From an uncultured Blautia sp. (GTDB lineage Bacteria; Bacillota; Clostridia; Lachnospirales; Lachnospiraceae): a stretch of 20,915 nt of DNA. The stretch lies in contig CAKRVX010000027.1 in NCBI GenBank assembly GCA_934409175.1, forward strand, positions 1 through 20,915, given 5' to 3'. Made by a program: the position numbers and the translations under genes. Shown piece by piece: positions 2,738 through 17,885 of this stretch (position 1 is the stretch's first letter; each line of letters begins with the position of its first letter). The notes beneath the pieces are model-generated. The model worked only from the letters and a program-made list of their open reading frames with translations, did no database searches and was not told where the DNA came from.

Positions 2738-3913
2738 TTATATTCTTGCCACGCCGGTCTTTCTCGCTGCGTCTGCAACTGCTTTCGCAACAGCCGGTCC
2801 CACACGTTTATCAAATGCTTTCGGAATAATATATTCCGGAGAAAGTTCTTCATCAGTGATCAGATTTGCAAGAGCATCTGCTGCTGCAATCTTCATCTCG
2901 TCATTAATATCCTTGGCTCTTACATCAAATGCACCTCTGAAAATTCCCGGGAATGCAAGTACATTGTTGATCTGGTTCGGATAGTCGCTTCTTCCTGTTG
3001 CAATGACCCTGGCTCCGCCAGCCTTCGCATCATCAGGATAAATCTCTGGAACCGGGTTTGCACACGCAAAAATCACGGCATCCTTTGCCATAGTTTCAAC
3101 CATTTCTTTTGTCACCATACCTGGCGCAGATACTCCGATGAAGACGTCTGCGCCCACCAGCATATCTGCAAGAGAACCAGATTTTTTCTCAAGGTTGGTA
3201 ACTTTGCTCATTTCCTCTTTGACAGGATTCATGCCTTCTGTTCTTCCTTCATAGATGGCACCTCTTCTATCGCAGAGAGTAATGTGTTTATAACCTGCTT
3301 TTAACAGCAGTTTGGTAATGGAAATTGCGGCTGCGCCGGCACCGTTTACCACGATAGACACATCCTCTTTCTTCTTTCCCACAAGGCGCATTGCATTGTT
3401 CAGACCTGCCAGAGTAATAACAGCTGTACCATGCTGATCATCATGGAAAATCGGAATATCACATTTTTCCTTCAGTTTTTTCTCTATTTCAAAGCATCTT
3501 GGAGCGGAAATATCCTCCAGGTTTACCCCACCGAAAGATCCTGAAATTAAATAAATTGTATTTACAATCTCATCTACATCATGAGACTTAATGCAAAGCG
3601 GAAATGCATCTACATCTCCGAATGCTTTAAACAGGACACATTTGCCCTCCATAACAGGCATACCTGCTTCTGGTCCGATGTCTCCCAGACCAAGAACAGC
3701 AGAACCATCTGTTACTACCAGACACATATTCCATCTTCTGGTCAGTTCATAAGACTGATTTACATCTTTCTGTATTTCCAGACAAGGCTGCGCAACGCCT
3801 GGTGTATAGGCCAGAGACAGATCATCCTTTGTCTCAACCGGAACGTTTGTTACAACCTGAATTTTGCCTTTCCATTCTTTATGCAGTCTCAGAGACTCTT
3901 TTGCATAATCCAT
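2738..3913 (-). CDS. Malic enzyme (oxaloacetate-decarboxylating malate dehydrogenase)
   Basis: A 391-residue cytoplasmic enzyme converting malate to pyruvate and CO2 with reduction of NAD(P)+. It has the short bacterial form without a phosphotransacetylase domain. Seen in order: [11 protein letters not shown] with catalytic Tyr36; [28 protein letters not shown] with catalytic-site Lys91; [12 protein letters not shown], the metal-binding acidic motif; FHDDQHGTA (157-164); and the nucleotide-binding GAGAAA (191-196). The start at 3913 was chosen because GGAGG lies eight bases before it; an in-frame ATG at 3946 would overlap the end of the upstream dehydrogenase gene. It lies 29 bases behind that gene, forming an operon. 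Whether NAD or NADP is used cannot be decided from motifs alone. Confidence 0.93.
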
Positions 3914-3942
3914 TTTATTTTCCTCCGCACTTTCTATATAAA

Positions 3943-5073
3943 TCAATAGTTTCCATTAAAGAATCTGCTGTCTTTCGGAAGTTCATAGTTCTTAAAATAA
4001 GCACCAAAATCTATTTTCAGATAATTACAGAGATTTGCCAGTTCTACCATAGTATTGTCATTTACAGGAATTCCATTCTCTCTGCGTTCTTTCTCTGCAA
4101 GCACTTCTTTCTCACCATGAGTATAAATCTGCTCTGCACCTTCTGCTTTCGGGCTCTGGCGAAGAGTTTCCAGATACTCTGAGAAATGAGCTTTAATATC
4201 CTCTGCATTTCCAAAAATTGCAGGATCAATGGCTGCAAATCCATGGCAGATACCTGTTTTGTCTTTAAAAGTACAACATTTATCAGAAGTAACACCCATA
4301 GAGAAAATAGAACTGAAGATTTCACAAAGCATTCCATATCCATAACCTTTATGACTGCCGCTTACTTCTTTATTTCCGCCGAGAGGCATAATGCCGCCGC
4401 CTTTCTTGCCGACAATATTTGCAAGTACATCCGGTGCGTCCGTGCTCTCATGGCCGTTAGCACCAAGAGCCCATCCTTCTGGAAGAGGTTTACCCATTTT
4501 GTTATACATTTCCAGTTTTCCTCTGGTTACGACTGTTGTGGAACAGTCAAAGAGGAATGGATAAGGTTCTGCAGGCATGGCTACTGCAATCGGGTTGGAA
4601 CCCAGCATAGCCTTTCGACCGAAAGTAGGTACCATAATCGCTTCTGAGTTAGTGCATGCCATACCAAGTAATCCCTGCTTGGAAGCCATTTCCGCATAAT
4701 ATCCGGCTATACCAAAATGATTGGAATTTCTTACAGAAACAAAACCAACACCTGTTTTCTTTGCCTTCTCAATTGCTTTCTCCATTGCAAAATGGGAGAT
4801 CAGCTGTCCCATTCCATTATGTCCGTCAACGACTGCTGATACAGGTGTCTCAAATACAACTTCCGGCTTCGCATCCAGATGAATGGTTCCCTTTTCAATT
4901 CCTTTATCATATCTTACCATCCGCTGCATTCCATGGCTCTCAATTCCGTACAGATCCGCAGTAAGTAAAACATCTTTGATAATATCGGTCTCTTCCTCAT
5001 TGAAACCGAATTTGCGGAATACATCGTGGCAAAAAGTATTTAATGTGTCATAACTCCATTTTACATAACCCAT
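3943..5073 (-). CDS. Ldh2-family NAD(P)-dependent malate/L-lactate dehydrogenase
   Basis: A 376-residue oxidoreductase of the malate/L-lactate dehydrogenase (type II, non-Rossmann) family. Signatures: D-YGIESHGMQR (40-51), the catalytic-His motif NSNHFG (His119) and a long conserved core (GMACTNSEA, GSNPIAVAMPA, FLFDCSTTVVTRGK). It oxidises a 2-hydroxy acid at the C2 position. Family members use malate, lactate, sulfolactate, ureidoglycolate or diketogulonate. Coupling to malic enzyme in the same operon favours malate, or lactate/malate interconversion. The ribosome site AGGAGG is 12 bases before ATG 5073, a little long. Transcription is likely from the promoter at 5138-5166, with a GntR-type box at 5113-5125 in the leader. 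Confidence 0.88.
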   Translation of the reverse strand: MGYVKWSYDTLNTFCHDVFRKFGFNEEETDIIKDVLLTADLYGIESHGMQRMVRYDKGIEKGTIHLDAKPEVVFETPVSAVVDGHNGMGQLISHFAMEKAIEKAKKTGVGFVSVRNSNHFGIAGYYAEMASKQGLLGMACTNSEAIMVPTFGRKAMLGSNPIAVAMPAEPYPFLFDCSTTVVTRGKLEMYNKMGKPLPEGWALGANGHESTDAPDVLANIVGKKGGGIMPLGGNKEVSGSHKGYGYGMLCEIFSSIFSMGVTSDKCCTFKDKTGICHGFAAIDPAIFGNAEDIKAHFSEYLETLRQSPKAEGAEQIYTHGEKEVLAEKERRENGIPVNDNTMVELANLCNYLKIDFGAYFKNYELPKDSRFFNGNY

Positions 5074-5125: not shown

Positions 5126-5137
5126 TCTTTTGTGTTG

Positions 5138-5166
5138 ATTATACCACTCGTATCTTCAGAATGCAA
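5138..5166 (-). promoter_or_regulatory. Sigma-A-type promoter for the ldh2-malic enzyme operon
   Basis: On the minus strand: TTGCAT (5166-5161), a 17-base spacer and a perfect TATAAT (5143-5138). The leader to ATG 5073 is about 58 bases and contains the palindrome at 5113-5125. Confidence 0.75.
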
Positions 5167-5209
5167 TACACTTTTTTATTTTTTTCACTGCTTATTATTT
5201 TGGGAATAT

Positions 5210-5223
5210 GTTGTTATAACAAC
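5210..5223. promoter_or_regulatory. 14-bp palindrome, candidate activator site for the cupin gene
   Basis: GTTGTTATAACAAC is a perfect 14-base palindrome. Its length and 5-4-5 layout match CRP/FNR-family boxes (the FNR box is TTGAT-N4-ATCAA), though the half-site GTTGT is not the canonical one. Its centre, 5216.5, is 41.5 bases upstream of the start predicted from the -10 at 5246-5251. That is the class II activator position. Confidence 0.45.
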
Positions 5224-5245
5224 TCATCTTTTATATTGTATGTGG

Positions 5246-5251
5246 TATACT
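5246..5251 (+). promoter_or_regulatory. -10 element of the cupin promoter, no good -35
   Basis: TATACT preceded by TGTGG. No TTGACA-like hexamer sits 16-18 bases upstream (the sequence there reads CTCATC), which suggests dependence on an activator, consistent with the palindrome at 5210-5223. The predicted transcript start is about 5258 with a 34-base leader. Confidence 0.45.
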
Positions 5252-5291
5252 TAAAAAAAGAAAACAGAATAACCACAGGAGGATTTTTATA

Positions 5292-5633
5292 ATGGAATTT
5301 ATTAAGAATATCAAACATGAAGAAGTATTAAATCTTGCATCTCTGGTTTCTGCCCAGGATGGTCAGATCGTAAGCAAAACTCTGGCACAGAATCCTTATG
5401 TCAGCCTTACATTATTTGCCTTTTCCAAAGGCGAAGAGATCAGTACCCACGACTCCAAAGGTGACGCAATGGTTTACGTACTTGAAGGAACAGGAAAATT
5501 TACAGTAGGCGGAAAAGAACATCTGGTAAATGCAGGCGAAACCCTGATCATGCCGGCTACTATCCCACACGCCGTATATGCGCAGGAAGATTTCAAGATG
5601 CTGCTTACAGTTGTGTTCCCAACTGAAGAATAA
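5292..5633 (+). CDS. Small single-domain cupin protein
   Basis: A 113-residue protein that is almost entirely one cupin barrel. Motif 1 is seen around residues 52-74 (STHDSKGDAMVYVLEG-G-F) and motif 2 around 84-98 (AGETLIMPATIPHAV). Candidate metal ligands are His53 and the His in IPHAV; the usual HxH pair is reduced to H-D, so metal binding is uncertain. The family holds small sugar-, ligand- and metal-binding proteins, and no specific activity can be read here. AGGAGG (5277-5282) lies nine bases before ATG 5292. It is divergent from the ldh2-malic enzyme operon and may respond to the same metabolic state, but they have different candidate operators. Confidence 0.8.
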   Translation: MEFIKNIKHEEVLNLASLVSAQDGQIVSKTLAQNPYVSLTLFAFSKGEEISTHDSKGDAMVYVLEGTGKFTVGGKEHLVNAGETLIMPATIPHAVYAQEDFKMLLTVVFPTEE

Positions 5634-5658
5634 GTCTGATAACACTTCAGATTATTTT
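5633..5658 (+). terminator. Weak hairpin terminator after the cupin gene
   Basis: AGTCTGA (5633-5639) pairs with TCAGATT (5647-5653, one G-T pair) and is followed by ATTTTC. It begins at the cupin stop codon. The stem is AT-rich and the T run short, so efficiency is doubtful; the hairpin at 5709-5748 may also help end this transcript. Confidence 0.35.
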
Positions 5659-5708
5659 CAAAATCAGCTATAAACAACTGCTGAAACCACTTTTTTAAAG
5701 TTATATTT

Positions 5709-5748
5709 AAAAGAGCCATTCCACACAACATCATGGAATGACTCTTTT
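5709..5748 (-). terminator. Terminator of the mgl-GH3-GH42 operon
   Basis: Inverted repeat AAAAGAGCCATTCCA (5709-5723) and TGGAATGACTCTTTT (5734-5748) with a ten-base loop. On the minus strand the one irregular position is a G-U pair, while on the plus strand it is a C-A mismatch, so the RNA stem is better for the minus-strand operon. It lies about 29 bases past the GH42 stop at 5777. Confidence 0.75.
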
Positions 5749-5776
5749 CATTGTCTCTGGTATTTTATTTTCTGAT

Positions 5777-7783
5777 TTATTTCTTTTTTAAGATTGCAAT
5801 GTCATATGGTTTTAATTCGATAACATTCTCTACTGCCTCATGTGTGATCATGTTCTCATATGGCTGTTCTGCTGAAACCACAACCGAATGATCATTATAG
5901 TTCATAACAAATAATGCATCATTTGTTCCATCTGTAGTGTCTACAACTTCTACGCCGTCAACTTTGTACAGATCCATATCAATGCCGGCTTTTCTTCCCA
6001 GATAAACTGCCAGAAGTTTCATAGCATCTTCATCCAGATCGCAGCCAAGGTAATATACCTCACCCTTTCCTGTCTGATTTACAGTCATGCATGCTTCACC
6101 TGCATAAAAATCAGAAGTATATCTGCCAAGTACTTTTGCAGTAACCGGTTTCACTACATCACACCACATATGTGCAGTTCCGTTGCCAAATACACCGGAT
6201 GCAGCTGTTGTTTTCTCAAGAAGTGGATCATAATCTTCAACTTCTACACCTGCCAGGTCTGCAAATACACCTGGTACAGTTTCTGTAAGCATGTTATTAT
6301 ACATATCTTTAATTCCGCTTCTGAATGAGAACAGAACTTTTCCACCTGCCTGTGCATAAGACTCAATGTTCTTCTTTCCTTCATCTGATACCATCATCAG
6401 CATTGGTGCAAGGACAAGATCATAACCATTTAAGTCTTCTTCTGCTGTCACAAAATCTACCGGAATTCCCATATTCCAGAATGGGCGGTAATAATCAAGC
6501 AGTAAGGAATCATAGTATAATCCCTCTACCTGACGATGGATGGACTGGCTCCATTCACTGTCAAAAGATTTAATGATCGCAACACGTGCTCTCGGCATCA
6601 GTGCCTGATAGCTCTTACTTAATTCTTCCATTTCTGCTCCCACCTGGGAGATCTCAGCATATCTTCTGTTTGGTTTTCCATCATGATTCAAAATACCATG
6701 CCAGAGTTCTTCTGTTCCAAACGGGCATGCTCTCCAGCGGAAGTATACAACTGTGTCAGCTCCATTTGCTACAGATTGGTATGTCCACAGACGGAGTTTT
6801 CCAGGTGTTGGTGTCGGACCCATCTTGCTCCATCCGCAAGGACCGGACTGCTGTTCCATAACCCAAAACGGTTTCTTTTTATAACTTCTTAGTAATGCAT
6901 GGTCTCTTGATACTGTTTCCGGTTTTGCTTTTCCCCACTGGAATTCAATGTAATTATCCCATGTTACGAAGTCAAATTCTTTGGATAACTTAAAGTAGTC
7001 AATTCCTGTTCCAGAGTTAATTGCAGCATCCAGAAGATTGCTGGTTACCGGACGATCAGAATATTCTTTAATTGTATCTACAGATTCTTTAGTAAATTCA
7101 ATTACGGAATCGCTGCAGAAACGATAATAATCTAACAACAGTGCAGGATTCTGTCCCTGTGTATCATGGCAAGTATCATAGCATGCGCCTGCCTTCGGAA
7201 TGATCAGTTCATCAAAGTTTCTGTATGTCTGGCTCCAGAAAGTGGTTCCATATGTTTTATTCAGATTATCAATGGTACCATATTTCGCTTTCAGCCAGTT
7301 ACGAAAACGATTTTCGCAGGATTTACAGTAACATCTGGTTGTATTTGACCAGCCCAGTTCATTATCTACCTGCCACGCCTCAATTGCAGGATGTTTTGCA
7401 TATCTCTTTGCAATAAGAGTATTTAATTTCTTTGTTTTTTCTCTGTAAGTCTGGCTGTTAAAGCAATAATGTTTTCTTGTTCCGAAGAGCTTCGGATTAC
7501 CATGAATATCATTCTGGAGAATATCCGGATACTTATCTACCATCCACTTAGGAGGTGTAGCAGAAGGTGTACACATTACAACCTTAATTCCGTATTTTCC
7601 AAAGAAATCCAGTGCCTCATCCATCCACTCAAATTCATATTTTCCTTCTTCCGGTTCATAAAGACTCCATGCAAATTCACCGATTCTGATCACTTTGATA
7701 TTTGCTTTAACCATCATCTCCGCGTCTATTTTCCAGCGCTCTTTGTCCCAGTGTTCCGGATAATAATCCGCACCAATTCTCAT
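5777..7783 (-). CDS. GH42 beta-galactosidase (intracellular)
   Basis: A 668-residue glycoside hydrolase of family 42, removing terminal beta-linked galactose. The TIM barrel (about 1-380) begins with GADYYPEHW. The acid/base is Glu142 in WQVDNELGW and the nucleophile Glu310 in FWVMEQQSGP. The four zinc-site cysteines known from GH42 are all present: Cys107, Cys151, Cys153 and Cys156. A beta-galactosidase trimerisation-like domain follows (about 390-600), then a short C-terminal beta domain. There is no signal peptide, so it works inside the cell on imported substrate. The start has GGGAG eight bases upstream and lies 15 bases after the GH3 stop. It is the last gene of the mgl operon. The exact substrate (galacto-oligosaccharide, galactosyl-glycerol or another galactoside) cannot be read. 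Confidence 0.95.
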   Translation of the reverse strand: MRIGADYYPEHWDKERWKIDAEMMVKANIKVIRIGEFAWSLYEPEEGKYEFEWMDEALDFFGKYGIKVVMCTPSATPPKWMVDKYPDILQNDIHGNPKLFGTRKHYCFNSQTYREKTKKLNTLIAKRYAKHPAIEAWQVDNELGWSNTTRCYCKSCENRFRNWLKAKYGTIDNLNKTYGTTFWSQTYRNFDELIIPKAGACYDTCHDTQGQNPALLLDYYRFCSDSVIEFTKESVDTIKEYSDRPVTSNLLDAAINSGTGIDYFKLSKEFDFVTWDNYIEFQWGKAKPETVSRDHALLRSYKKKPFWVMEQQSGPCGWSKMGPTPTPGKLRLWTYQSVANGADTVVYFRWRACPFGTEELWHGILNHDGKPNRRYAEISQVGAEMEELSKSYQALMPRARVAIIKSFDSEWSQSIHRQVEGLYYDSLLLDYYRPFWNMGIPVDFVTAEEDLNGYDLVLAPMLMMVSDEGKKNIESYAQAGGKVLFSFRSGIKDMYNNMLTETVPGVFADLAGVEVEDYDPLLEKTTAASGVFGNGTAHMWCDVVKPVTAKVLGRYTSDFYAGEACMTVNQTGKGEVYYLGCDLDEDAMKLLAVYLGRKAGIDMDLYKVDGVEVVDTTDGTNDALFVMNYNDHSVVVSAEQPYENMITHEAVENVIELKPYDIAILKKK

Positions 7784-7798
7784 AGTATTTTCTCCCTG

Positions 7799-9874
7799 TT
7801 ATTGTCCAAAATTAAATTTCACAGATTTTAATGCTTCTTTGCAGCTGCAGTCACCTGTATATGCAATATATGTAATATCCTCTTCTACGAAATCATCTTT
7901 TTCTTCTGAATAATAAGCCATATCCTGTGATTTTACCTGAAGGCAAACCTTAGTCTCTTCTCCCGGCATTAACTCTACTCTTGCGAAATCTTTCAGAATC
8001 TTAATCGGACGATCTACAGCACTTCCTTCACATCCGATATAAAGCTGTACAACTTCTGCGCCTTTTACATCTCCGGTATTCTTTACATTAACAGAAATCT
8101 TTGCTGTCTTATCAAATACTTCAACTGTCGGCTCGCTGATGTCAAATGTTGTATAGGATAAACCATAGCCAAACGGATACAGAACAGGAATGTTTTCTTT
8201 ATCCATCTTGCAGTAGCCATGATAATATTCATACTCTGCATATGTGCAGTCAGGATCAAAATCAGGATAGCTGTCTTCGGAAAGTGCTACTGTATATGGA
8301 AGTTTACCGCTTGGGCAAACATCACCGAACAGAATATCTGCCAGTACATTTCCGCCTTCCATTCCACTGTAGAAGGAAAAGATAATTGCAGGAACATCTT
8401 TTTCCCACTCATCGATCAGAATCGCACTGCTTCCGATAATGGAAACGACGGTATTCGGATTAACACCCTTTACACCATGAATCAGGTCGATATCTCTCTG
8501 ATGAAGTCTCATGCTTGCTCTGTCTCCGCCCATTCCGGCAATATCACTTCTATCAGCCAGATATTCTCCTTCATCGCTATGGATATAGCCGGCAACGATC
8601 ACTACTGCATCAGCATCTGCTGCAAGTTCTTTTGCACGTTCCAGATCGCTTCCGTCATTATAAAGGATCTGTGCTTTCGGCATTTTTTTCATCAAGCCTT
8701 TAAATGGTGTGACTGTATAATATGGATGAACCTTACTGGAACCATGGTCGCCGATATTTTCTGTATCTCCCAGTACTCCAAGAACCACAATCTTCTCTGT
8801 TTTCTCTTTATCAAGCGGAAGTACATGATTTTCATTCTTCAGAAGTACCATCGATTCTTCTGCTGCTCTCTTTGCTACTGCTACATGTTCCGGGCATGCA
8901 AGAATATCTTCTGTATATTCCTGTGGATCTTTTCTTGTCTCATAATAGAGTACAGTACGAAGAATATAACCAACTGCTTCATCTACATCTTCCATAGCAA
9001 GAGTTCCGTCTTCAATTGCTTTAGGGATCTGTTCTGCATAATGGCAGATACATGGCATTTCAACATTCATTCCACTCTTTACTGCCTTTGGACCATCTTT
9101 TACAGCCCAGAGGAAATCAGATAAAGTAAATCCCTCGAATCCCCATTTATCTCTGAGGATATCTTTTAACAGATATTTACTCTCAGATGCCTGTTCTCCA
9201 TAAACTTTATTGTATGCTCCCATTACAGAAGCTGCGCCTTCTTCAATACATCTCTTGAAGTGAGGAAGATATACTTCAAAAAGTGTTCTCTTATCTGCAT
9301 GCACATCAGCTTTAAATCTCGCATTTTCAATACTGTTCATTGCGAAATGTTTAATGCATGCCATAACATTTTGGCTCTGAACGCCTCTCGTCAGAGCTGC
9401 ACCCATTTCTCCCAGATGATAGGTATCTTCTCCGTAGCACTCCTGTGCACGGCCCCAGCGTGGGTTTCTTGGAAGATTGATGCACACACCGCCGTAATAG
9501 TTTCCGCCCACTGCACGAACCTCTGCACCGATCACTTCTCCAATCTTCTCTTCCAAATCACGGTCAAAGCTGGCACCTCTTGCCATAGAAACAGGAAAGC
9601 AGGTGGCAGATCCGGCAACAACACCTCTTGGTCCGTCTACGAAACGGATATTCGGGATTCCCAGGCGTTCTACTGCTTTTGTCGGATATGGCTTTACATT
9701 ATAGTGTTCGATCAGGAACAGATCATCCAGTAATTTCTTCTCTGTAACCTGGCCTGACATTACACCGATCTTCTCATCCAGTGTAAGTTCTTTGATCACT
9801 TCATCTACATATTTCTTTATTGTTTCTTTGGAACAATTCTCTGTAAGTTTTGTTCTTTTTACTACATCTCTCAT
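7799..9874 (-). CDS. GH3 beta-glycosidase (beta-glucosidase-like, intracellular)
   Basis: A 691-residue family 3 glycoside hydrolase. The N-terminal barrel shows FVDGPRG, NLPRNPRWGRAQECYGED, KHF (175-177) and LSDF with the nucleophile Asp253. The middle alpha/beta sandwich domain has GYIHSDEGEYLADR with candidate acid/base glutamates. The C-terminal fibronectin-III-like domain (about 585-660) shows GAEVVQLY and RPIKILKDF. There is no signal peptide. Family 3 enzymes hydrolyse beta-glucosides, beta-xylosides or N-acetylglucosaminides; the KH(F/S)-X(5)-D/H signature of NagZ is absent, so a beta-glucosidase-type activity is the best guess. AAGGAG lies nine bases before the ATG. It sits between mglC (45-base gap) and GH42, so both glycosidases likely act on sugars delivered by this transporter. 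Confidence 0.92.
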   Translation of the reverse strand: MRDVVKRTKLTENCSKETIKKYVDEVIKELTLDEKIGVMSGQVTEKKLLDDLFLIEHYNVKPYPTKAVERLGIPNIRFVDGPRGVVAGSATCFPVSMARGASFDRDLEEKIGEVIGAEVRAVGGNYYGGVCINLPRNPRWGRAQECYGEDTYHLGEMGAALTRGVQSQNVMACIKHFAMNSIENARFKADVHADKRTLFEVYLPHFKRCIEEGAASVMGAYNKVYGEQASESKYLLKDILRDKWGFEGFTLSDFLWAVKDGPKAVKSGMNVEMPCICHYAEQIPKAIEDGTLAMEDVDEAVGYILRTVLYYETRKDPQEYTEDILACPEHVAVAKRAAEESMVLLKNENHVLPLDKEKTEKIVVLGVLGDTENIGDHGSSKVHPYYTVTPFKGLMKKMPKAQILYNDGSDLERAKELAADADAVVIVAGYIHSDEGEYLADRSDIAGMGGDRASMRLHQRDIDLIHGVKGVNPNTVVSIIGSSAILIDEWEKDVPAIIFSFYSGMEGGNVLADILFGDVCPSGKLPYTVALSEDSYPDFDPDCTYAEYEYYHGYCKMDKENIPVLYPFGYGLSYTTFDISEPTVEVFDKTAKISVNVKNTGDVKGAEVVQLYIGCEGSAVDRPIKILKDFARVELMPGEETKVCLQVKSQDMAYYSEEKDDFVEEDITYIAYTGDCSCKEALKSVKFNFGQ

Positions 9875-9919: not shown

Positions 9920-10936
9920 TTATTTTCTCTTGGCATATTTTCTCATATCAATGATAACAGCAAGAAGAATGATCAGACCTTTTACGATGTACTGCCAGTA
10001 CATGTTTACACCGATGAATGCAAGGCCATAATTGATAACTGTGAACATCAGAACACCAATTACGATACCGCCGACACTACCAACACCACCTGAAAGAGAT
10101 ACACCGCCGATTACGCAGGCAGCAACTGCATCCATTTCATATCCGTTACCGGTTGTATTGGAGGCACTTCCGATACGTCCTACTTCCAGAGCTGCTGCAA
10201 ATGCATACATCATACCTGCAATTGCGTAAACCATAATCTGTGTCTTTATAACATTTACACCTGATACTTTTGCAGCTTCCGGGTTACCACCTACTGCAAA
10301 CATATATTTACCAAATTTTGTTTTATTCCATACGATCCACATAACTACACATACTGCTGCGGCAATGATGATCAGATACGGAATCTGGAAGTCTCCGATT
10401 CCAATGGAACCAATTGCAATCTGAGTTACTTTTGAATCAATACCACCAATTGGCTGTGCACCATATGGCGGACGGTCAAAATAAATAGAAGATGCACCAT
10501 ATAAGATCAACTGCATACCAAGCGTTGCGATAAACGGCGGTACTTTAAATACTGCAACAAGCACACCGGATATTCCACCAAGTACAAGACAGATTGCCAG
10601 TACCAGTAATAATGGAACGATCAGCGGAAGCTCTTTTAAGTTCGGATACATTCTGTATGCATAGTCCGGATTCTGAACTAAAGATGCGAAGATAACTGCT
10701 GCCAGACCGATCATACGTCCTGTGGAAAGGTCAACGCCCTGCACTACCAGTACCATTCCGGCTGCTAATGCAATAATGATCTTAGTTGATGACTGCGCAA
10801 AAATATTTTTAAAGTTATTGAATGATAAGAATCTTGGTTCTACTACCACAATTGCAACTAACAGGATAATAAAAACCAGATAAATTGCTTTTTCAGCAAT
10901 AAGTTCTTTAATTGAAATGTTCTTTGAATTTTTCAC
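9920..10936 (-). CDS. mglC: Sugar ABC transporter permease, MglC type
   Basis: A 338-residue inner-membrane permease of the branched-chain amino acid/ribose-galactose family, close to the 336 residues of E. coli MglC. It shows about eight to ten hydrophobic segments, the family signature VVQGVDLSTGRMIGLAAV in the N-terminal half, and the cytoplasmic coupling loop GKYMFAVGGNPEAAKVSGV. I chose the GTG at 10936 because AGGAGGGG lies six bases before it. A longer frame to 10999 exists but would overlap the ATPase gene and has no ribosome site. It follows mglA after 31 bases and partners with it and mglB in sugar uptake. Confidence 0.9.
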   Translation of the reverse strand: MKNSKNISIKELIAEKAIYLVFIILLVAIVVVEPRFLSFNNFKNIFAQSSTKIIIALAAGMVLVVQGVDLSTGRMIGLAAVIFASLVQNPDYAYRMYPNLKELPLIVPLLLVLAICLVLGGISGVLVAVFKVPPFIATLGMQLILYGASSIYFDRPPYGAQPIGGIDSKVTQIAIGSIGIGDFQIPYLIIIAAAVCVVMWIVWNKTKFGKYMFAVGGNPEAAKVSGVNVIKTQIMVYAIAGMMYAFAAALEVGRIGSASNTTGNGYEMDAVAACVIGGVSLSGGVGSVGGIVIGVLMFTVINYGLAFIGVNMYWQYIVKGLIILLAVIIDMRKYAKRK

Positions 10937-10967
10937 CAGAATCCCCTCCTGAGTTCGTATTGAAAGA

Positions 10968-12461
10968 TCAGATAAATCGGGCCGCTGCCTGCATAACATC
11001 TACCTGTCCTACTTCTTTTGAATCAAATATAGCTGATTGATGTCCATTGCTCATAACCAGAATCCTGTCGGAAATTCCAAACAGTTCCGGCATTTCTGAG
11101 CTTACTACGATAATTCCTTTTCCTTGCTCAGCCAGCTGGTTGATGAGCTGATAGATTTCAAATTTAGCACCTACGTCAATACCCCTGGTAGGCTCATCCA
11201 AGAGCAGGATATCAGGATCTGTCAGCAGCCATCTGCCCAGAATTACTTTCTGCTGATTTCCTCCTGAAAGGTTTGCGATCTTGGACTTCATTGACGGAGT
11301 TTTTACTTTCATGGCATTTATCATTTTGGTAATATCTGCTTTCATTTTTTCTCCGTTTAAAAGTCCCGTCTTCTGATATTTCGGCAAATTGGAAATTGTC
11401 ATATTAAATCCAACACTCAAACCTCCAAAAATACCATCCGATCTTCGTTCCTCTGTCAGCATTGCAAATCCATTCGCCATTGCCTCTTTTGGACTTCTGT
11501 TCTGAACTTCTTTTCCTTTTACCAGTATCTGACCTTTGCCTTTCATTCTTATGCCAAATAATGTTTCAAGGATTTCCGTTCTCTTAGATCCTACTAATCC
11601 GGCGATTCCAAGGATTTCTCCCTTATGTAATTGAAAATTAACGCCCTCAAATCCTGGATTTAATGTACCGAGGTCTTTTACTTCCATTAATACATCGCCT
11701 ATCTTGGCTTTCTTTTCCGGATAACGGTCTTTTAATTCTCGTCCAACCATCATTTTGATGATCTTATCAATGGTCAACTCACTGGCAGGTTTTGTATCAA
11801 TCCACTTGCCATCCCTCATGACTGTTACATCATCAGAAATACGCAAAATTTCTTCCATTTTATGTGATATATAAATAATACTGGTATTCTTTTTCTTAAG
11901 CTTCTCTATAATCTTAAAAAGATGCTCTACTTCTTTCTCTGTAAGCGATGAAGTCGGTTCATCCATTACAATTACTTTTGAGTTATACGAAACTGCTTTT
12001 GCAATCTCTATCATCTGTTTTTGTGAAACTTTCAGGGTTCCTATCTTAACCTTCGGATTTACCTGAATATCCAAATCATCAAAAATCGCTTTTGTGTCTT
12101 CATACATTTTCTGGTCATCTACCAGACCATGCTTCATTGGAAATCTTCCAAGCCACATATTTTCCATAACTGTCTGATTTAATACCTGGTTCAGTTCCTG
12201 ATGCACCATGGATACATGATTCTGTAATGCTTCTGATGGGCTGGAAAATTTAATGTTTTTGCCATCCAGAATGATTTCGCCCTCATCAAATGAATAAATA
12301 CCGAACAGACATTTCATTAATGTGGATTTACCTGCACCATTTTCTCCCATAAGAGAATGCACTGTTCCAGGACGTACACATAACGTTACATCGTCAAGTG
12401 CTTTTACACCAGGAAACGATTTTGAAATATGCTTTAATTCCAATATATATTCTGTTCCCAT
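10968..12461 (-). CDS. mglA: Sugar ABC transporter ATP-binding protein, MglA type (two ATPase domains)
   Basis: A 497-residue protein with two fused ABC domains. Domain 1: Walker [10 protein letters not shown] (39-47), Q-loop region VHQEL, signature-like VSQKQ (145-149), Walker B VIVMDEPT (163-170) and H-loop ISH (198-200). Domain 2: degenerate Walker [10 protein letters not shown] (288-296, typical of this family), full signature LSGGNQQK (398-405), Walker [13 protein letters not shown] (418-429) and VSSEMPE. This asymmetry is normal for MglA/RbsA/XylG. It is a useful living reference for the dead homologue at 13784-15208. AAAGGA lies seven bases before ATG 12461. It is separated from mglB by an intercistronic hairpin. 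Confidence 0.95.
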
Positions 12462-12536: not shown

Positions 12537-13592
12537 TTATTCATAAGTTGACTTTGCTAAATCAAGATTATCTTTGGTGATTGCCTGATATGGAACTCGT
12601 ACAGCTTTTGCTTCTTCTTCCATTTCTACACCTTCGATTCCATCCATAGCGTCTTTACCATTTGTAAGGTTCTCTGCCATTTTTACAATTGTCTGTCCCT
12701 GAGTCTTAGCATCCTGTAATACGGAACCTGTGATCTCACCGCTTTCAATCTTGGAAAGAATTTCAGGAAGAGCATCAATTCCATAAATCGGAATGTATTT
12801 GCTGCTTTCTTCTCCATCTGTATTAAATCCGGCTGCTTCTACTGCTGATAAAGCACCAAGTGCCATTGCATCGTTTCCTGCTACGCAGCATTCAATTTCG
12901 TCACCGTATTTAGATACCCATGCATCCATTTTTTCTTTTGCAGTTGCTGTTACCCACATTCCTGTATCTTCTGCAAGAAGGTCAATCTCAATTCCTGCAT
13001 CTTCGATCGTGCTCTTGAGATAATCACATCTCGGCTGGGATGCTGTATGTCCCGGGTCACCCATCAGATATACAAGCTGTAATTTTCCATCACCATTTTT
13101 ATCCATTTCCGGATGTTCTTTCCAGTAGTCGATTACCATCTGTGCCTGAATAGATGCACCGTAATCTCCACCTGTAGATGTTACCTGATAAGCATTTTCA
13201 TAAGAATTAATTACATCGTAATCTGTTATCTCTTTGTTGAAGAAAATGATCGGAACATTTCCTGCGTCTTTACATTTCTGGATCAGTGTCGGAGCTGCTG
13301 TTACATCACATACAGAAACTGCAACTGCAGAAGCGCCTTTAGCCAGCATTGTATCAACCTGATTGTTCTGTGTGGACTGGTCATTCTGTCCATCTTCGAT
13401 GTTTGTTTTAAAGATTCCATCGCATGCATTTGTAATCGCTTTTCCAATATAAGAGTTGAAGTTATCAGAAGCTGAATAAATACCTGCGCCAAGAATCTTC
13501 TCATCATCAGCCTTTACCTGTGCTGCACCTACGCCGCCAACACCGGCTACCATTACTGTTGCCATTAAGACACTTAATAACTTTTTCTTCAT
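12537..13592 (-). CDS. mglB: Galactose/galactoside-binding protein, MglB type, without lipobox
   Basis: A 351-residue exported binding protein, clearly homologous to E. coli MglB (GGBP): DGQNDQSTQNNQVD, VPIIFFNKE, MWVTATAKEKMDAW and YGIDALPE. The calcium loop DKNGDGKLQ (164-172) and Glu234 are kept. By my recalled alignment the sugar contacts Asp43, Phe45, Asn119, His182, Arg188, Trp213, Asn240 and Asp273 are kept, whereas E. coli Asp154 and Asn256 are Ala184 and Gln293 here. The signal peptide ends QVKA-DD and holds no cysteine, so it is not a lipoprotein, which is unusual for a Gram-positive binding protein. It is first in the mgl operon, behind the promoter at 13644-13672. Confidence 0.92.
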   Translation of the reverse strand: MKKKLLSVLMATVMVAGVGGVGAAQVKADDEKILGAGIYSASDNFNSYIGKAITNACDGIFKTNIEDGQNDQSTQNNQVDTMLAKGASAVAVSVCDVTAAPTLIQKCKDAGNVPIIFFNKEITDYDVINSYENAYQVTSTGGDYGASIQAQMVIDYWKEHPEMDKNGDGKLQLVYLMGDPGHTASQPRCDYLKSTIEDAGIEIDLLAEDTGMWVTATAKEKMDAWVSKYGDEIECCVAGNDAMALGALSAVEAAGFNTDGEESSKYIPIYGIDALPEILSKIESGEITGSVLQDAKTQGQTIVKMAENLTNGKDAMDGIEGVEMEEEAKAVRVPYQAITKDNLDLAKSTYE

Positions 13593-13643: not shown

Positions 13644-13672
13644 ATGTTAACTTTGAGGGACTATTTTTTCAA
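13644..13672 (-). promoter_or_regulatory. Promoter of the mglBAC-GH3-GH42 operon
   Basis: On the minus strand: TTGAAA (13672-13667), a 17-base spacer and TAACAT (13649-13644). The transcript start is near 13637 with a 45-base leader; the ribosome site GGGAGGG precedes ATG 13592. The -10 is weak, in keeping with an activated promoter. CAAAAG occurs twice on the same strand just upstream (13678-13673 and 13707-13702), possibly recognised by the AraC-type regulator encoded nearby. Confidence 0.6.
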
Positions 13673-13724
13673 CTTTTGATATTTAGATTAAGGGGGGCAT
13701 TCTTTTGTTTCTTATTTTTTGTAC

Positions 13725-13780
13725 AAAAAAAAGACGAATTATCCAAAATTTTTATCATTATTGCATATTCGCCTTTTTTC
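13725..13780 (-). terminator. Terminator of the two-component/pseudo-ATPase operon
   Basis: On the minus strand AAAAAAGGCGAAT (13779-13767) pairs with ATTCGTCTTTTTT (13739-13727, one G-U pair), and the T run continues to 13725. The loop is long (27 bases). It starts four bases after the pseudo-ATPase stop at 13784 and lies upstream of the mgl promoter, so the two operons are transcribed separately. Confidence 0.65.
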
Positions 13781-13783
13781 GTT

Positions 13784-15208
13784 TTACCATTCTTCTTCTC
13801 TTGTCAGCACACCGTGCTTAAGAAACATGGATTCTCCCTTGATTTTATTCATGATTGCAAAATTAGCAGTAAGAAGAATTACTCCGATTCCTCTTTTCTG
13901 CAATGCTCCGATCATTTTTCTTGTAATTTCCCTCATATTAATATCCATATCTGTAAATGGATTCTCAATGATCACAATCTTTGGCTGATACACCAGCCAT
14001 TTTTCATAGACCAGCTTCTGTAGTTCTGCATTTCCGATATTTTTCAGTTTCTTCTTATTCAGCTCATCATTCTGAAGAAAATCGCTTACACTTCTGGTAT
14101 ACTTTTTCGCAAACCAGAATCCTCTTACCTTTTCATGCAGCGGCACACTTACATTTTCCGTTGCACTCATATTATCCAGGATCATGCTCCTATACGGTGC
14201 TTCTGTTATAAACCCTACGCCCTCACGTACTGCCTGGCTCATATTTGATACCTTATACAATTTCTCAGAAATATAAATCTGTCCTTCTTCAATGCTCTCT
14301 TCTCCCGAAAACATTTCCCAGAAACTGCTCTTGCTTTTTTCATCTGAATAATAAATCTTAAGCAGCTCTCCAGAACACAACGTAAAATTAAGATTCTTCA
14401 GATAACAGGTACTTACATCTCTTACTTCTAATACATTGTTCTGCCCATTTATTACTTTCTGCCCATAGGCTCCAAATGTCTCCGCCTTATTTTCATATAT
14501 CAGAGCTTTCAGAACCTTGCTCAATTTACAGTTTAACTGAGAAATCCCAGATACAAATGTAGTTCTTCCATTTTGAACAACTGCAATATATTCCAACCAT
14601 TCCATAATAAAATCTTCAAATCCTACTGTCACCAGGAATGACATCTGGGATTTCATTTTGTCAATAAGAGAAAACACTTCTCCCAGGTCCTTTTCTGATA
14701 AAAGACTGGTAATCTCATCCAGAATTACAATTTTCTTTCTTTCCTCATAGGCTTTAAGTAATTCTATAATAACCTTTTCCTTGGCAGATAAACTTCTGAC
14801 TTTATGAGGCATATCATCCGAAATATCCAGTTCCGTCCTTAACTTCTGGAAACGTTCTCTATACTCTTTCTGATCCAGAAACAGTTTTCTGTCCGAAAAA
14901 AGAAATATATTATCTTCTATCGTAATAGAAGGCAATAATTTACTTTTAGAACCAATCACCGCCACCTGCTGTTTTAACAATCTGGCAGCTTCTTCATAAG
15001 CTTTCCTTTCCTCATTTACAAAAATCTTTCCTGAATAAAGTAAAACATCTCCAAGCAGCATATCAATAAAGAGCTTCTGTTCCAGAATATCATCGAATAC
15101 GATTCCTGTTATTTCTCCTTGAAACAGTTCCAGAGACAAGTCATCAAATATAACGTTATTCCCTTTTTTTATCTTTCCGCCTTCTATATTCAGTAATTCT
15201 CTTTTCAC
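13784..15208 (-). CDS. Degenerate MglA-like double ABC protein (predicted pseudo-ATPase), linked to the histidine kinase
   Basis: A 474-residue protein with the layout of MglA/RbsA but with nearly all nucleotide-binding motifs lost. Domain 1: the Walker A site is VFDDILEQKL (37-46) with no glycine loop and no GKS/T; the signature is SLSAKEK (139-145); Walker B VILDE (161-165) survives; the H-loop His is gone (TVGFED, 194-199). Domain 2: no Walker A (YYSDEKSKSS, 286-295); signature NIGNAELQK (390-398); Walker B became IVIIENPFTDMD (411-422). The frame is open and full length, so this is a kept protein, not a decayed gene. It begins with a GTG overlapping the kinase stop (GTGA), so the two are translationally coupled. 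It is probably not an energiser of transport; I infer a signalling or docking role. Annotation pipelines would call it a sugar ABC ATP-binding protein. Confidence 0.85.
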   Translation of the reverse strand: MKRELLNIEGGKIKKGNNVIFDDLSLELFQGEITGIVFDDILEQKLFIDMLLGDVLLYSGKIFVNEERKAYEEAARLLKQQVAVIGSKSKLLPSITIEDNIFLFSDRKLFLDQKEYRERFQKLRTELDISDDMPHKVRSLSAKEKVIIELLKAYEERKKIVILDEITSLLSEKDLGEVFSLIDKMKSQMSFLVTVGFEDFIMEWLEYIAVVQNGRTTFVSGISQLNCKLSKVLKALIYENKAETFGAYGQKVINGQNNVLEVRDVSTCYLKNLNFTLCSGELLKIYYSDEKSKSSFWEMFSGEESIEEGQIYISEKLYKVSNMSQAVREGVGFITEAPYRSMILDNMSATENVSVPLHEKVRGFWFAKKYTRSVSDFLQNDELNKKKLKNIGNAELQKLVYEKWLVYQPKIVIIENPFTDMDINMREITRKMIGALQKRGIGVILLTANFAIMNKIKGESMFLKHGVLTREEEW

Positions 15209-16239
15209 TGATTTCTCTGCTCCCTGTTTGTAATGATCGGTACCGATATCCTGACTTCTGTTCCAAGATTAGGAATACTATAAATATGTATTCCATATTC
15301 ATCCCCAAATAACAGCTTAATACGCCTGGATACATTCGGCAAAGCAATACCTCCACTTTTACGCTTCTCTTCTGTCAGCGGCCCTGAAGTTACCTCCAGT
15401 CTCTGGTTGATCTTTATAAGCTCTTCTTCGTCAATTCCAATTCCGTCATCATGAATATTAATCAGAAGTTTCTTCTCTGTCATCTCCAGTGAAATGGTGA
15501 TAACTCCACCTTCTGCTTTCGCTTCCAGACCATGGAAAATTGCATTTTCAACTACAGGTTGCAAAGTAAGTTTAGGGAGTTTACATTCCAGGATCCTTGC
15601 ATAGTCATCCGGAAAATTAACTCTCATATCCAGTTTATCTCCAAAACGATACTGCTGTATTTTAAAATAATTCTCTATATTCTCCAGTTCATCTTCTACT
15701 GAAACCAGATTTCCTGTATCCGTGATGGTATATCTGAAAAATGTAGACAATGCTTCCGTCGTATCAGCAATACTATCAATTCCCTCACATAGCGCATCTC
15801 CTCGTATTGCTTCCAGCGTATTATACAGAAAATGAGGATTGATCTGATTCTGCAGTGCAAGAAGTTCTGCATGTTTTGTCGATAACTCAATAATGTTCTT
15901 TTTATCCAATATGGAATCCAGCTTCTGCATTACTTCATTCTGCTCTGGAAAAATCTGATAATCCTGATCAATCAGTTCCTGAAAACTTCCACTCTGTATA
16001 AAATGTTTGAATAATTTTCTGGTCTCATTACATGGTTTGATAAGAAACTTATAAATAATCACATAAATGCTTCCTGTAATAACTATCTCTGTCACAATAA
16101 CCACCATCATAGAAAAGAATCCCAGATATCCTATCGATGCAGCCCATATAACTTCTATAAACTGAAGACCTGCTCCTAATCCCAGAAGAATCCACAGAAA
16201 ATTAACTGCCTGTCTGCTAAATATATTTCTTTTTTTCAT
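15205..16239 (-). CDS. YesM-type sensor histidine kinase with minimal sensor region
   Basis: About 344 residues. Two hydrophobic segments near the N-terminus (about 11-33 and 40-64) are joined by only a few residues, so there is no extracellular ligand domain; typical YesM kinases have one of over 200 residues. A HAMP-like linker follows, then the His_kinase domain with phospho-acceptor His136 in QINPHFLYNTLE, then an ATPase domain with N-box VENAIFHGLE and G-box DDGIGID. I chose ATG 16239 because AGGTG lies upstream and no ribosome site precedes the in-frame ATG at 16260, which would add seven residues. It follows the response regulator gene directly and overlaps the pseudo-ATPase gene. It probably phosphorylates the regulator at 16266-17885. 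Confidence 0.88.
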   Translation of the reverse strand: MKKRNIFSRQAVNFLWILLGLGAGLQFIEVIWAASIGYLGFFSMMVVIVTEIVITGSIYVIIYKFLIKPCNETRKLFKHFIQSGSFQELIDQDYQIFPEQNEVMQKLDSILDKKNIIELSTKHAELLALQNQINPHFLYNTLEAIRGDALCEGIDSIADTTEALSTFFRYTITDTGNLVSVEDELENIENYFKIQQYRFGDKLDMRVNFPDDYARILECKLPKLTLQPVVENAIFHGLEAKAEGGVITISLEMTEKKLLINIHDDGIGIDEEELIKINQRLEVTSGPLTEEKRKSGGIALPNVSRRIKLLFGDEYGIHIYSIPNLGTEVRISVPIITNREQRNQ

Positions 16240-16265
16240 AGTTTTTTTGCACCTGCACATTTTGA

Positions 16266-17885
16266 TTAACTATATAACTTTCTAAATTCTGAAGGATTCA
16301 ATCCTGTTGTCTTCTTAAACAATTTAGAAAAATATTTCAGATCATTATATCCTACTGCAGATGCTACTTCCGCAATGTCATAATTAGTCTGTATGAGATA
16401 GTTCTTTGCATTTTGGATACGAAGCTCTGTCACATACTCAAGGAAATTTTTTCCTGTTTCTTTCTTAAAGAGTGTAGAAAAATAGGCAGCATTAAATCCA
16501 ATATACTCACTGACATTCTCCAGACTGATATGTTTATTGAAATTATCATGGATATATTTCTTTGCATCACGTATCGGTTTACTCTCTTCATCCTGAATAT
16601 TCTTCATGTAAGCCTGATGCACCCGGGACAGATCCGATCTGATCCACTGAAAGAGTTCATCATAATCCCATATCCTTCTGTACTGTTTTTTATAATCTTC
16701 AATCAGAAAAAGATTTCTGCCTTCACGAGAATATTTCATACCAAACCGCAATGTTTCAACTAATTCACCAAAAACTTCATAAACCAGTTTTCCGTCATAC
16801 TTAAATGGCTTCAATTTCTCTCCAACCTTGTCAACAAGGCGGAGAGTTCCTTCAATATCCATTCTTTCCTGATAGGTCAGGATTTCATTTCGCAGACCAC
16901 TGTCAAAAATTTCTTCTTTAGTTTTTCCACTTTTACTGTCTTCACTGTAGCAGATATATGTATCTTCATTTTCGCCCATTCGATTCATGATCGCCAGTTC
17001 TGCCTCTCGGAAACTATCCGTGATTCCCATATAAGAACTATATGTATTTCCCTGTCCGATCCTTATTCTGATATCAGGAAATACAGTTTTCAAATTAGAT
17101 ACATTAACTATCAAATGTTTTAGCTTTTTCCTGACTGGTTCAATCTCTTTATCCGCTGTATTTAAAATGCATACGATTTCATCCTGATATACTGTAGACA
17201 TATAAGTTTCGCAGTATATCTCCAATTTTTCTTTTACCATCTGATGAATTTTGTTCATTACAAATTCTTCACTGTCACCGGCAGATTTGTCCGAATTTTT
17301 TGAGAAAAATGGCCTGACTCTGACTGCTGTAAAAAATCCTTTATGAAATTTACAACCATACTGTTCATTCAACTGTTCCAGACTCATATCTGCTTTTAGC
17401 GGATTAGTTGCTGAGTTCTGGAGCGTTTTCATAAGAAAATTCTCCCGTATATGTTCTCTGGATGCTTCAATGATAGATTCCATTTCGTTTCTGATTCTGG
17501 TACTCTTAATCAGAGATTCATGTGATTCTTTAATTTCAGTTAATGAGTTTTCCAGTTCTCTCTTTTTTAATGGTTTCAACAGGTAGTCTTTTACCCCATA
17601 CTTGATTGCCTGCTGTGCATATTCAAACTGACTGTAACCGCTGATTACTATGAAATTAATCTCCGGATTCACTTCTTTTGCCCTGCGTATCAGTTCAAGT
17701 CCATCATACACCGGCATACGTATATCTGTAATCACAATATCCGGTTTCTTTTCACAAATACTTTCATAAGCAGTTTTTCCATCATTTGCAAAACCAACAA
17801 TATCCATTTCCAGGGCATCCCAATCTACAAGGTGCTGGATCAGCCGACATACCTTTATTTCATCATCTGCTATTAATACCTTCAA
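16266..17885 (-). CDS. YesN-type response regulator with AraC DNA-binding domain
   Basis: A 539-residue transcription factor. The receiver domain (1-120) has acidic pocket DDE (7-9), phosphorylation Asp54 in VITDIRMP, and Lys in LLKPLKK. The long middle region (about 130-430) is typical of YesN regulators and of unassigned role. The C-terminal 100 residues form the AraC double helix-turn-helix (ISLENVSEYIGFNAAYFSTLFKK, split; AEVASAVGYNDLKYFSKLFKK). The start is TTG 17885, with GGGAGG seven bases upstream; no ATG fits. It is the first gene of the operon with the kinase and the pseudo-ATPase. The adjacent mgl-glycosidase operon is the likely target, by position and by analogy with other YesMN pairs beside sugar transporters. 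Confidence 0.92.
   Translation of the reverse strand: MKVLIADDEIKVCRLIQHLVDWDALEMDIVGFANDGKTAYESICEKKPDIVITDIRMPVYDGLELIRRAKEVNPEINFIVISGYSQFEYAQQAIKYGVKDYLLKPLKKRELENSLTEIKESHESLIKSTRIRNEMESIIEASREHIRENFLMKTLQNSATNPLKADMSLEQLNEQYGCKFHKGFFTAVRVRPFFSKNSDKSAGDSEEFVMNKIHQMVKEKLEIYCETYMSTVYQDEIVCILNTADKEIEPVRKKLKHLIVNVSNLKTVFPDIRIRIGQGNTYSSYMGITDSFREAELAIMNRMGENEDTYICYSEDSKSGKTKEEIFDSGLRNEILTYQERMDIEGTLRLVDKVGEKLKPFKYDGKLVYEVFGELVETLRFGMKYSREGRNLFLIEDYKKQYRRIWDYDELFQWIRSDLSRVHQAYMKNIQDEESKPIRDAKKYIHDNFNKHISLENVSEYIGFNAAYFSTLFKKETGKNFLEYVTELRIQNAKNYLIQTNYDIAEVASAVGYNDLKYFSKLFKKTTGLNPSEFRKLYS

Follow-up and report, generated by a model that had tools for sequence, protein, structure and literature searches.

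In a 20,915-nucleotide stretch of an uncultured Blautia sp. genome (contig CAKRVX010000027.1, referred to here in its full length as the window), we found a three-gene cassette that encodes a YesN-type response regulator, a short YesM-type sensor kinase, and a relative of the sugar-transporter ATPase MglA whose ATP-site motifs are lost (the pseudo-ATPase, or dead ATPase). The cassette is real and conserved, and it is undescribed as far as the literature was searched. There is good support for assigning the dead ATPase to the kinase, in the place that a sensor would otherwise occupy, and we consider it likely that the dead ATPase is the input subunit of the kinase. A preliminary description of the window had proposed that the dead ATPase docks on the permease MglC or on the kinase and replaces the missing sensor domain; we found that this interpretation stands in part, in that the pairing with the kinase in place of a sensor holds, while docking on MglC has about an even chance of being right.

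All genes of interest lie on the minus strand in the order regulator, short kinase, MglA-like gene, mglB, mglA, mglC, GH3, and GH42 (Table 1). Open reading frames and Pfam searches bear out the three genes and the coordinates that had been proposed for them, and the adjacent mglBAC transporter with two glycosidases was recovered by its domains (MglB, MglA, MglC, GH3, and GH42). The stop codon of the kinase gene and the start codon of the pseudo-ATPase gene overlap in a GTGA at 15205–15208, also as described before. The regulator carries the Pfam domains Response_reg, HTH_18, HTH_AraC, and GGDEF_2, and the pair has the YesM/YesN arrangement of a His_kinase (PF06580) plus HATPase_c kinase that adjoins a receiver–AraC regulator.

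The pseudo-ATPase aligns with the true MglA of the window over residues 21–456 (452 columns, 21% identity, E 2e-28), and its tandem ABC domains extend over the whole length, so that in homology and domain layout it is like the tandem ATPases MglA, RbsA, AraG, and XylG. Unlike these proteins, it has lost its ATP motifs and its best curated family score is 122 bits against a cut-off of 689. In MglA, the canonical ATP site depends on three elements, the N-half Walker A and H-loop and the C-half LSGGN. In the pseudo-ATPase, the N-half Walker A reads FDDILEQKL as compared to GENGAGKST in the window MglA, the H-loop His is gone, and the C-half signature reads IGNAELQK as compared to LSGGNQQK; the N-half Walker B DE is retained. 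By its motifs, the protein thus lacks the working ATP site of an MglA/RbsA-type transporter ATPase. The earlier claim that the ATP sites are ruined holds for these three elements; however, the C-half Walker A is not distinctive. Because the C-half Walker A of the true MglA (GLVGSKRTE) is itself off consensus, the C-half losses that mean something are those of the signature and of Walker B (ENP in place of DEP).

A structure model of the pseudo-ATPase (20 sequences) has a mean predicted local distance difference test score of 81.7 and a predicted template modelling (TM) score of 0.66. In a fold search with this model, the top match was the methyl-coenzyme M reductase activation component (TM 0.63 by query), followed by DppD and OppD of peptide importers (0.67–0.72), and the model resembles these tandem ATPases; no sugar-importer ATPase was among the best 50 rows. 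When the window MglA was used as the query against solved structures, no full-length MglA/RbsA-type ATPase was found at E 1e-30, and importers of this class may lack structural coverage in the set searched.

Conserved co-occurrence in relatives had been set beforehand as the test on which the idea could fail, and the idea survived it, with the same cassette order recurring. A protein search with the pseudo-ATPase gave 51 matches, 19 of which were aligned; Walker A is lost in the 14 closer ones (35–89% identity) and in one remote match (P0043, 22%), and the other four remote aligned matches are ordinary ATPases. Ten loci came from a scan of named genomes; one (L010) is an ordinary ABC gene and nine are genuine, in Lacrimispora, a Hungatella metagenome-assembled genome (MAG), two MAGs labelled Paenibacillaceae, Lachnospiraceae UBA7225, and a Clostridiales MAG. 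In these nine loci, the order is regulator, short kinase, and dead ATPase as far as the contigs extend, and the Lacrimispora-type loci and UBA7225 also carry mglB, mglA, mglC, GH3, and GH42. Because this order recurs in other genera even though the dead ATPase there is merely 26–39% identical, the pattern goes beyond chance, and we rejected chance linkage on the conserved order across genera and genomes. When five mgl-type loci are compared to the window, the dead ATPase is 27–35%, the kinase 47–51%, and the regulator 39–44% identical, as compared to 66–77% for MglA and MglC, indicating that the dead ATPase is fast-evolving yet retained.

To count cassettes, we used 397 genomes of the family of G001, taken as Lachnospiraceae since G001 holds a Lacrimispora locus, and a profile whose query alignment was chosen by sequence and not by neighbourhood. 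Matches were accepted at E 1e-50 or better and no genome had more than four candidates scored, so that the counts are lower bounds: at least 34 genomes had a match, and there were at least 43 matches. Nine of these 43 are ordinary transporter ATPases (more than 400 bits to MglA); two of the nine lie directly after a cassette that has its own, lower-scoring MglA-like gene, and seven have no kinase or regulator among their listed neighbours. The remaining 34 all stand behind a kinase and a regulator: 33 are degenerate, one is intact (L078), and one locus has a split kinase frame (L073). Of 398 genomes sampled across the phylum, 128 have an MglA-like match of some kind, mostly too weak to separate dead from active proteins. 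A short-kinase profile gave eight matches of at least 414 bits in seven genomes of this sample, with all others listed below 275 bits, and next to each of the eight is an MglA-like match that reaches 267 bits or more. G001, which contributed to building the profiles, accounts for two of the eight; the MglA-like genes of the other six, read individually, have degenerate motifs.

Our working set is 58 cassettes, near-duplicates included, with extras found through their short kinases. The MglA-like gene starts within 25 base pairs (bp) of the kinase end or overlaps it in 57 of the 58, with an overlap in 36, a number that may be overstated since starts were taken as the first start codon of the frame. 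The median length of the MglA-like proteins is 483 amino acids (aa), and there are up to five cassettes per genome among those read (G206).

The window kinase has an intact phosphorylated-His box and N-box and, by hydropathy only, two hydrophobic stretches (residues 21–39 and 51–69) with an 11-residue gap; together with the Pfam result, this agrees with the two-helix YesM kinase without an extracellular domain in the preliminary description. Long YesM kinases usually carry an outer sensor domain and HAMP. The short kinases lack this architecture, and no HAMP or sensor domain was found in the 45 that were scanned (E 0.01). Two hydrophobic stretches separated by 1–26 residues are present in 54 of 57 short kinases and a single one in the other three (hydropathy only), so that by hydropathy these 54 have the BceS-like form of two helices with a very short outer loop.

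To see how closely short kinases and MglA-like genes go together, we searched 14 cassette-bearing genomes with PF06580 (304 matches, 150 of them listed). Among the matches listed, and with G002 left out because of broken frames, 13 genomes have 25 kinases of 279–410 aa, all of whose neighbourhoods were read; 23 of the 25 directly adjoin an MglA-like partner, which is truncated in L098. The L098 locus (5132–8056, minus strand) is a decaying cassette in which the regulator is split as well. L073, with its split kinase, was left out of the kinase counts, and L107, a 454-aa kinase by an active ATPase and without a dead ATPase, is outside both length groups. In contrast, an ABC gene directly adjoins none of 20 long kinases (480–637 aa) from the same genomes, which were hand-picked from the list and not random. 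Nine proteins (of 14 frames) encoded at most two genes from the kinase at eight of these 20 loci (L111, L113, L116, L118, L119, L121, L126, and L127) are all Peripla_BP_4 binding proteins. Thus, two alternative designs seem to be in use within the same bacteria, a long kinase with a binding protein or a short kinase with a dead ATPase. Fusions of kinase and ATPase, which would serve as proof of contact, were absent among the open frames listed. An 849-aa ABC frame in G739 was rejected as a fusion since it encodes a transporter ATPase of the ordinary kind and has no similarity to kinases, and five apparent fusions (P0025, P0027, P0028, P0037, and P0041) look like assembly chimeras, near-identical pieces of the locus joined to neighbouring or unrelated genes.

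In a tree with 48 active reference rows (47 loci; the window MglA was entered twice), all 57 cassette MglA-like proteins included form one clade with a support of 0.999. The N-half GxxxxGK[ST] is missing in 52 of the 58 cassettes (the exceptions are L075, L076, L078, L086, L091, and L103), and only L078 keeps all motifs in both halves (the C half of L008 is outside its contig). L078 branches first (0.663 for the clade of the other 56), then L076 and L086 (0.445), then L091 and L103 (0.848), an order to be read with long-branch attraction and some low supports in mind. Because four of the five other P-loop keepers, all except L075, branch near the base of the clade, the tree suggests that the ATP site may have been lost stepwise. 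L078 (G138:C26, 4252–8523) is a short-kinase cassette with its own transporter ATPase and permease divergently beside it, and it may show the state before catalysis was lost. In an alignment of 47 sequences, most ATP-site columns are lost; Asn100 (94%) and Asn352 (100%), right after the two Q-loops, are kept, as are several glycines. Residues that are unseen in active ATPases and specific to the family include E4 (98%), Pro409 (91%), and, close to residue 7, an Arg (85%).

To compare joint evolution, we calculated distance correlations on 37 of the 58 cassettes, leaving out L078, L073, L008, and near-duplicates. The rank correlation with the dead ATPase is 0.66 for the kinase and 0.70 for the regulator, as compared to 0.43 for the transporter ATPase and 0.34 for the permease, and the bootstrap interval (2.5–97.5%) of the gap between kinase and permease is 0.05 to 0.59. 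On these distances, the MglA-like partners follow the kinase and the regulator more closely than the transporter. When the dead ATPase is held constant, the partial correlation between kinase and permease falls to 0.00; when the kinase is held constant, that between dead ATPase and permease stays at 0.25 (0.07 to 0.44). This difference hints at a possible chain from permease to dead ATPase to kinase.

Two things support the earlier presumption that the cassette governs the mgl operon: where the cassette lies, and a conserved box at the promoter of mglB (Table 1). A terminator-like hairpin with a T-run lies between the dead ATPase gene and mglB and is in line with a separate mgl transcript; the consensus scan, which allows loops of up to 8, does not list the hairpin. 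The box end overlaps a promoter-like TTGAAA..TAACAT (13672–13644). A scan for consensus promoters gave 14 where 19.1 are expected and was uninformative. The window has one match to the box with 0 mismatches, where 0.02 are expected with up to three mismatches. The box is also found upstream of mglB in L001–L004, L015, L049, and L052; L005 and L006 have variants of it, and the form in L007 is degenerate. Since the mglB gene of L052 points away from the cassette and still has the box upstream, the box goes with the operon and not with the cassette end. In the 397 genomes, the box has three matches (G001, G213, and G263), which are loci from which the pattern was derived. It was found nowhere else in these three genomes or in the other 394, counted per genome and not per cassette-less mgl operon, and the reversed pattern was never found in the 397.

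Related CCCC-run boxes are present upstream of transporter genes by non-mgl cassettes (L050, L053, L063, L066, L067, L072, L074, and L082) and are perhaps a family of regulator sites. The L074 box, downstream of the dead ATPase gene, is a clear 21-bp direct repeat, and direct repeats are typical of AraC-type sites. A family-wide operator pattern, derived post hoc from the same sequences and therefore descriptive only (ten near-duplicate loci left out), occurs downstream of the dead ATPase in 11 of 48 loci on the forward strand, as compared to a shuffle mean of 1.06 and a shuffle maximum of 4, and in 2 of 48 on the reverse strand. Upstream of the regulator, it occurs in 2 of 49 on the forward strand (shuffle mean 0.73) and in 8 of 49 on the reverse strand, and inside the gene in 2 of 49 on each strand (0.43). 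A transporter ATPase and a permease of the MglA/MglC family are both in the stretch read for 45 of the 58 cassettes, and at least one of them for 53.

Table 1. Features of the window that belong to the cassette and to its presumed target operon.
Feature	Position	Strand	Details
YesN-type response regulator	16266–17885	-	539 aa, TTG start; receiver and AraC-type helix-turn-helix
Short YesM-type sensor kinase	15205–16260	-	351 aa; Pfam His_kinase and HATPase_c only
MglA-like pseudo-ATPase	13784–15208	-	474 aa; two ABC domains, ATP sites destroyed by motif
Terminator-like hairpin and T-run between dead ATPase and mglB	13722–13782	-	-16.4 kcal/mol, z -4.13
Conserved box CCCCC-N2,3-AATCTAAA-N8-GTTG upstream of mglB	13670–13697	-	candidate regulator binding site
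MglB-like galactose-type binding protein	12537–13592	-	first gene of the presumed target operon; NCBIfam 284 bits, below the cut-off of 420
MglA, transporter ATPase	10968–12461	-	motifs intact save the off-consensus C-half Walker A; 796 bits, cut-off 828
MglC permease	9920–10999	-	above the NCBIfam MglC cut-off
GH3 glycosidase	7799–9874	-	domain search
GH42 beta-galactosidase-type glycosidase	5777–7783	-	domain search

Elsewhere in the window (2738–5073, minus strand), a malic enzyme-like frame (402 aa) lies beside a malate/lactate-type dehydrogenase-like frame (376 aa), both named by eye.

We propose that the regulator, the kinase, and the dead ATPase would form one three-component sensory system, in which the dead ATPase would supply the input of the sensor-less kinase. 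The dead ATPase would descend from a transporter ATPase and would have turned into a signalling subunit after losing catalysis. Most likely, it would occupy the place of MglA on the permease MglC; the resulting receptor complex would be unable to transport but would still engage sugar-loaded MglB. The conformational change would then pass via the dead ATPase to the adjoining two-helix kinase, and phosphorylated YesN would bind the box upstream of mglB and turn on mglBAC and the two glycosidases. The full relay, from sugar-loaded MglB through a permease-bound dead ATPase to the kinase and YesN, could in our judgement equally well be right or wrong.

Some observations weigh against this proposal. 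The two partial correlations differ by an amount whose bootstrap interval includes 0 (–0.03 to 0.54), in the 31 loci with a transporter within 6 kb the dead ATPase–permease correlation given the kinase is 0.23 (–0.01 to 0.44), and covariation with the permease is weak. The Asn residues retained after the Q-loops may be structural. By the cut-offs used, five of the 58 cassettes (L055, L058, L075, L089, and L008) show neither a transporter ATPase nor a permease, with L008 ending at the contig end and L058 showing an edge-cut ATPase start. The box pattern was derived from the loci where it is found, so that only its position and its absence elsewhere count. Of the two short kinases without a directly adjoining partner, L097 has none and its regulator is of a different type, and L102 has a half-size one (238 aa; 8289–9005, minus strand) before the regulator instead of behind the kinase. 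In G002, where four of the seven short frames listed were looked at, L104 and L109 (367 and 406 aa) are without a dead ATPase, while the frames of L108 and L110 are split or cannot be read.

The strongest alternative, which we regard as rather unlikely, is that the dead ATPase binds the kinase alone and acts as a cytoplasmic sensor. Its ABC pocket, refolded and free of ATP, would then bind a sugar that has been imported, or a sugar phosphate, and report import or catabolism to the kinase. The strong joint evolution with the kinase and the regulator, weaker with the transporter, would fit such a sensor, and so would the family-specific E4, Arg near residue 7, and Pro409; however, the retention of both full ABC domains and of the post-Q-loop Asn weighs against it, as does the transporter ATPase or permease of the same family in the stretch read for 53 of the 58 cassettes. 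It is improbable that the dead ATPase is a transport brake that competes with MglA for MglC while the kinase controls its amount or state. An MglA relative encoded beside an MglA/MglC operon could suggest a brake, but the gene is tied to the kinase and not to the transporter, lying at most 25 bp from the kinase end or overlapping it in all but one of the cassettes, and the protein tracks the kinase more than the permease. Slightly less probable again is a kinase that senses alone via its membrane helices, with the dead ATPase merely a scaffold or stabilizer: kinases without an outer sensing domain are a known class (PMC7828314), but the partner beside 23 of the 25 listed short YesM kinases argues for an input role. 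A decaying pseudogene without function, to which the destroyed ATP motifs and a few decayed-looking cassettes (L098 with its truncation, L073 with its split kinase) might point, is very improbable and was rejected, since full-length frames and family-specific residues are conserved across species and deep divergence.

As compared to known systems, the proposed receptor is close in outline to BceAB-BceS-BceR and other transporter-coupled intramembrane-sensing kinases, in which a two-helix kinase without a sensor domain takes its input from an ABC transporter; BceS contains a HAMP domain and depends on an active BceAB that binds and hydrolyses ATP, and the permease of BceAB has a large outer loop (PMC10314905, PMC7828314). 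In contrast, the cassette pairs a YesM-type kinase that has no HAMP with an inactive MglA-type ATPase, and sugar import is its presumed target. In XylFII-LytS-YesN, a transporter-derived protein is the third component of a pair that controls a sugar ABC transporter. The same holds for CuaD-CuaS-CuaR (PMC10384115). Unlike the cassette, XylFII and CuaD are outside binding proteins that dock on an outer kinase domain; the short kinases have no outer domain and the third gene encodes an ATPase relative. PstSCAB-PhoU-PhoR is similar in that an ABC importer reports to a kinase. That system has an active ATPase with PhoU as linker, unlike the dedicated dead ATPase of the cassette. No description of a dead ABC ATPase as a kinase partner was found in the open-access full text of PubMed Central, which leaves most subscription papers and all preprints outside.

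The boldest reading of these data is a history to which we give somewhat less than an even chance: a sugar-transporter ATPase lineage would have been captured once by a kinase and would have lost hydrolysis step by step, with permease and dead ATPase now a receptor that would sense the sugar-loaded binding protein and drive the kinase, and would then have radiated into paralogous sugar sensors that mostly lie near a transporter of the same family. If the proposal is true, it would explain the input of the sensor-less YesM kinases in Lachnospiraceae, pseudo-ATPases would join the short list of kinase input subunits, and the cassette would provide a candidate regulator for many sugar operons.

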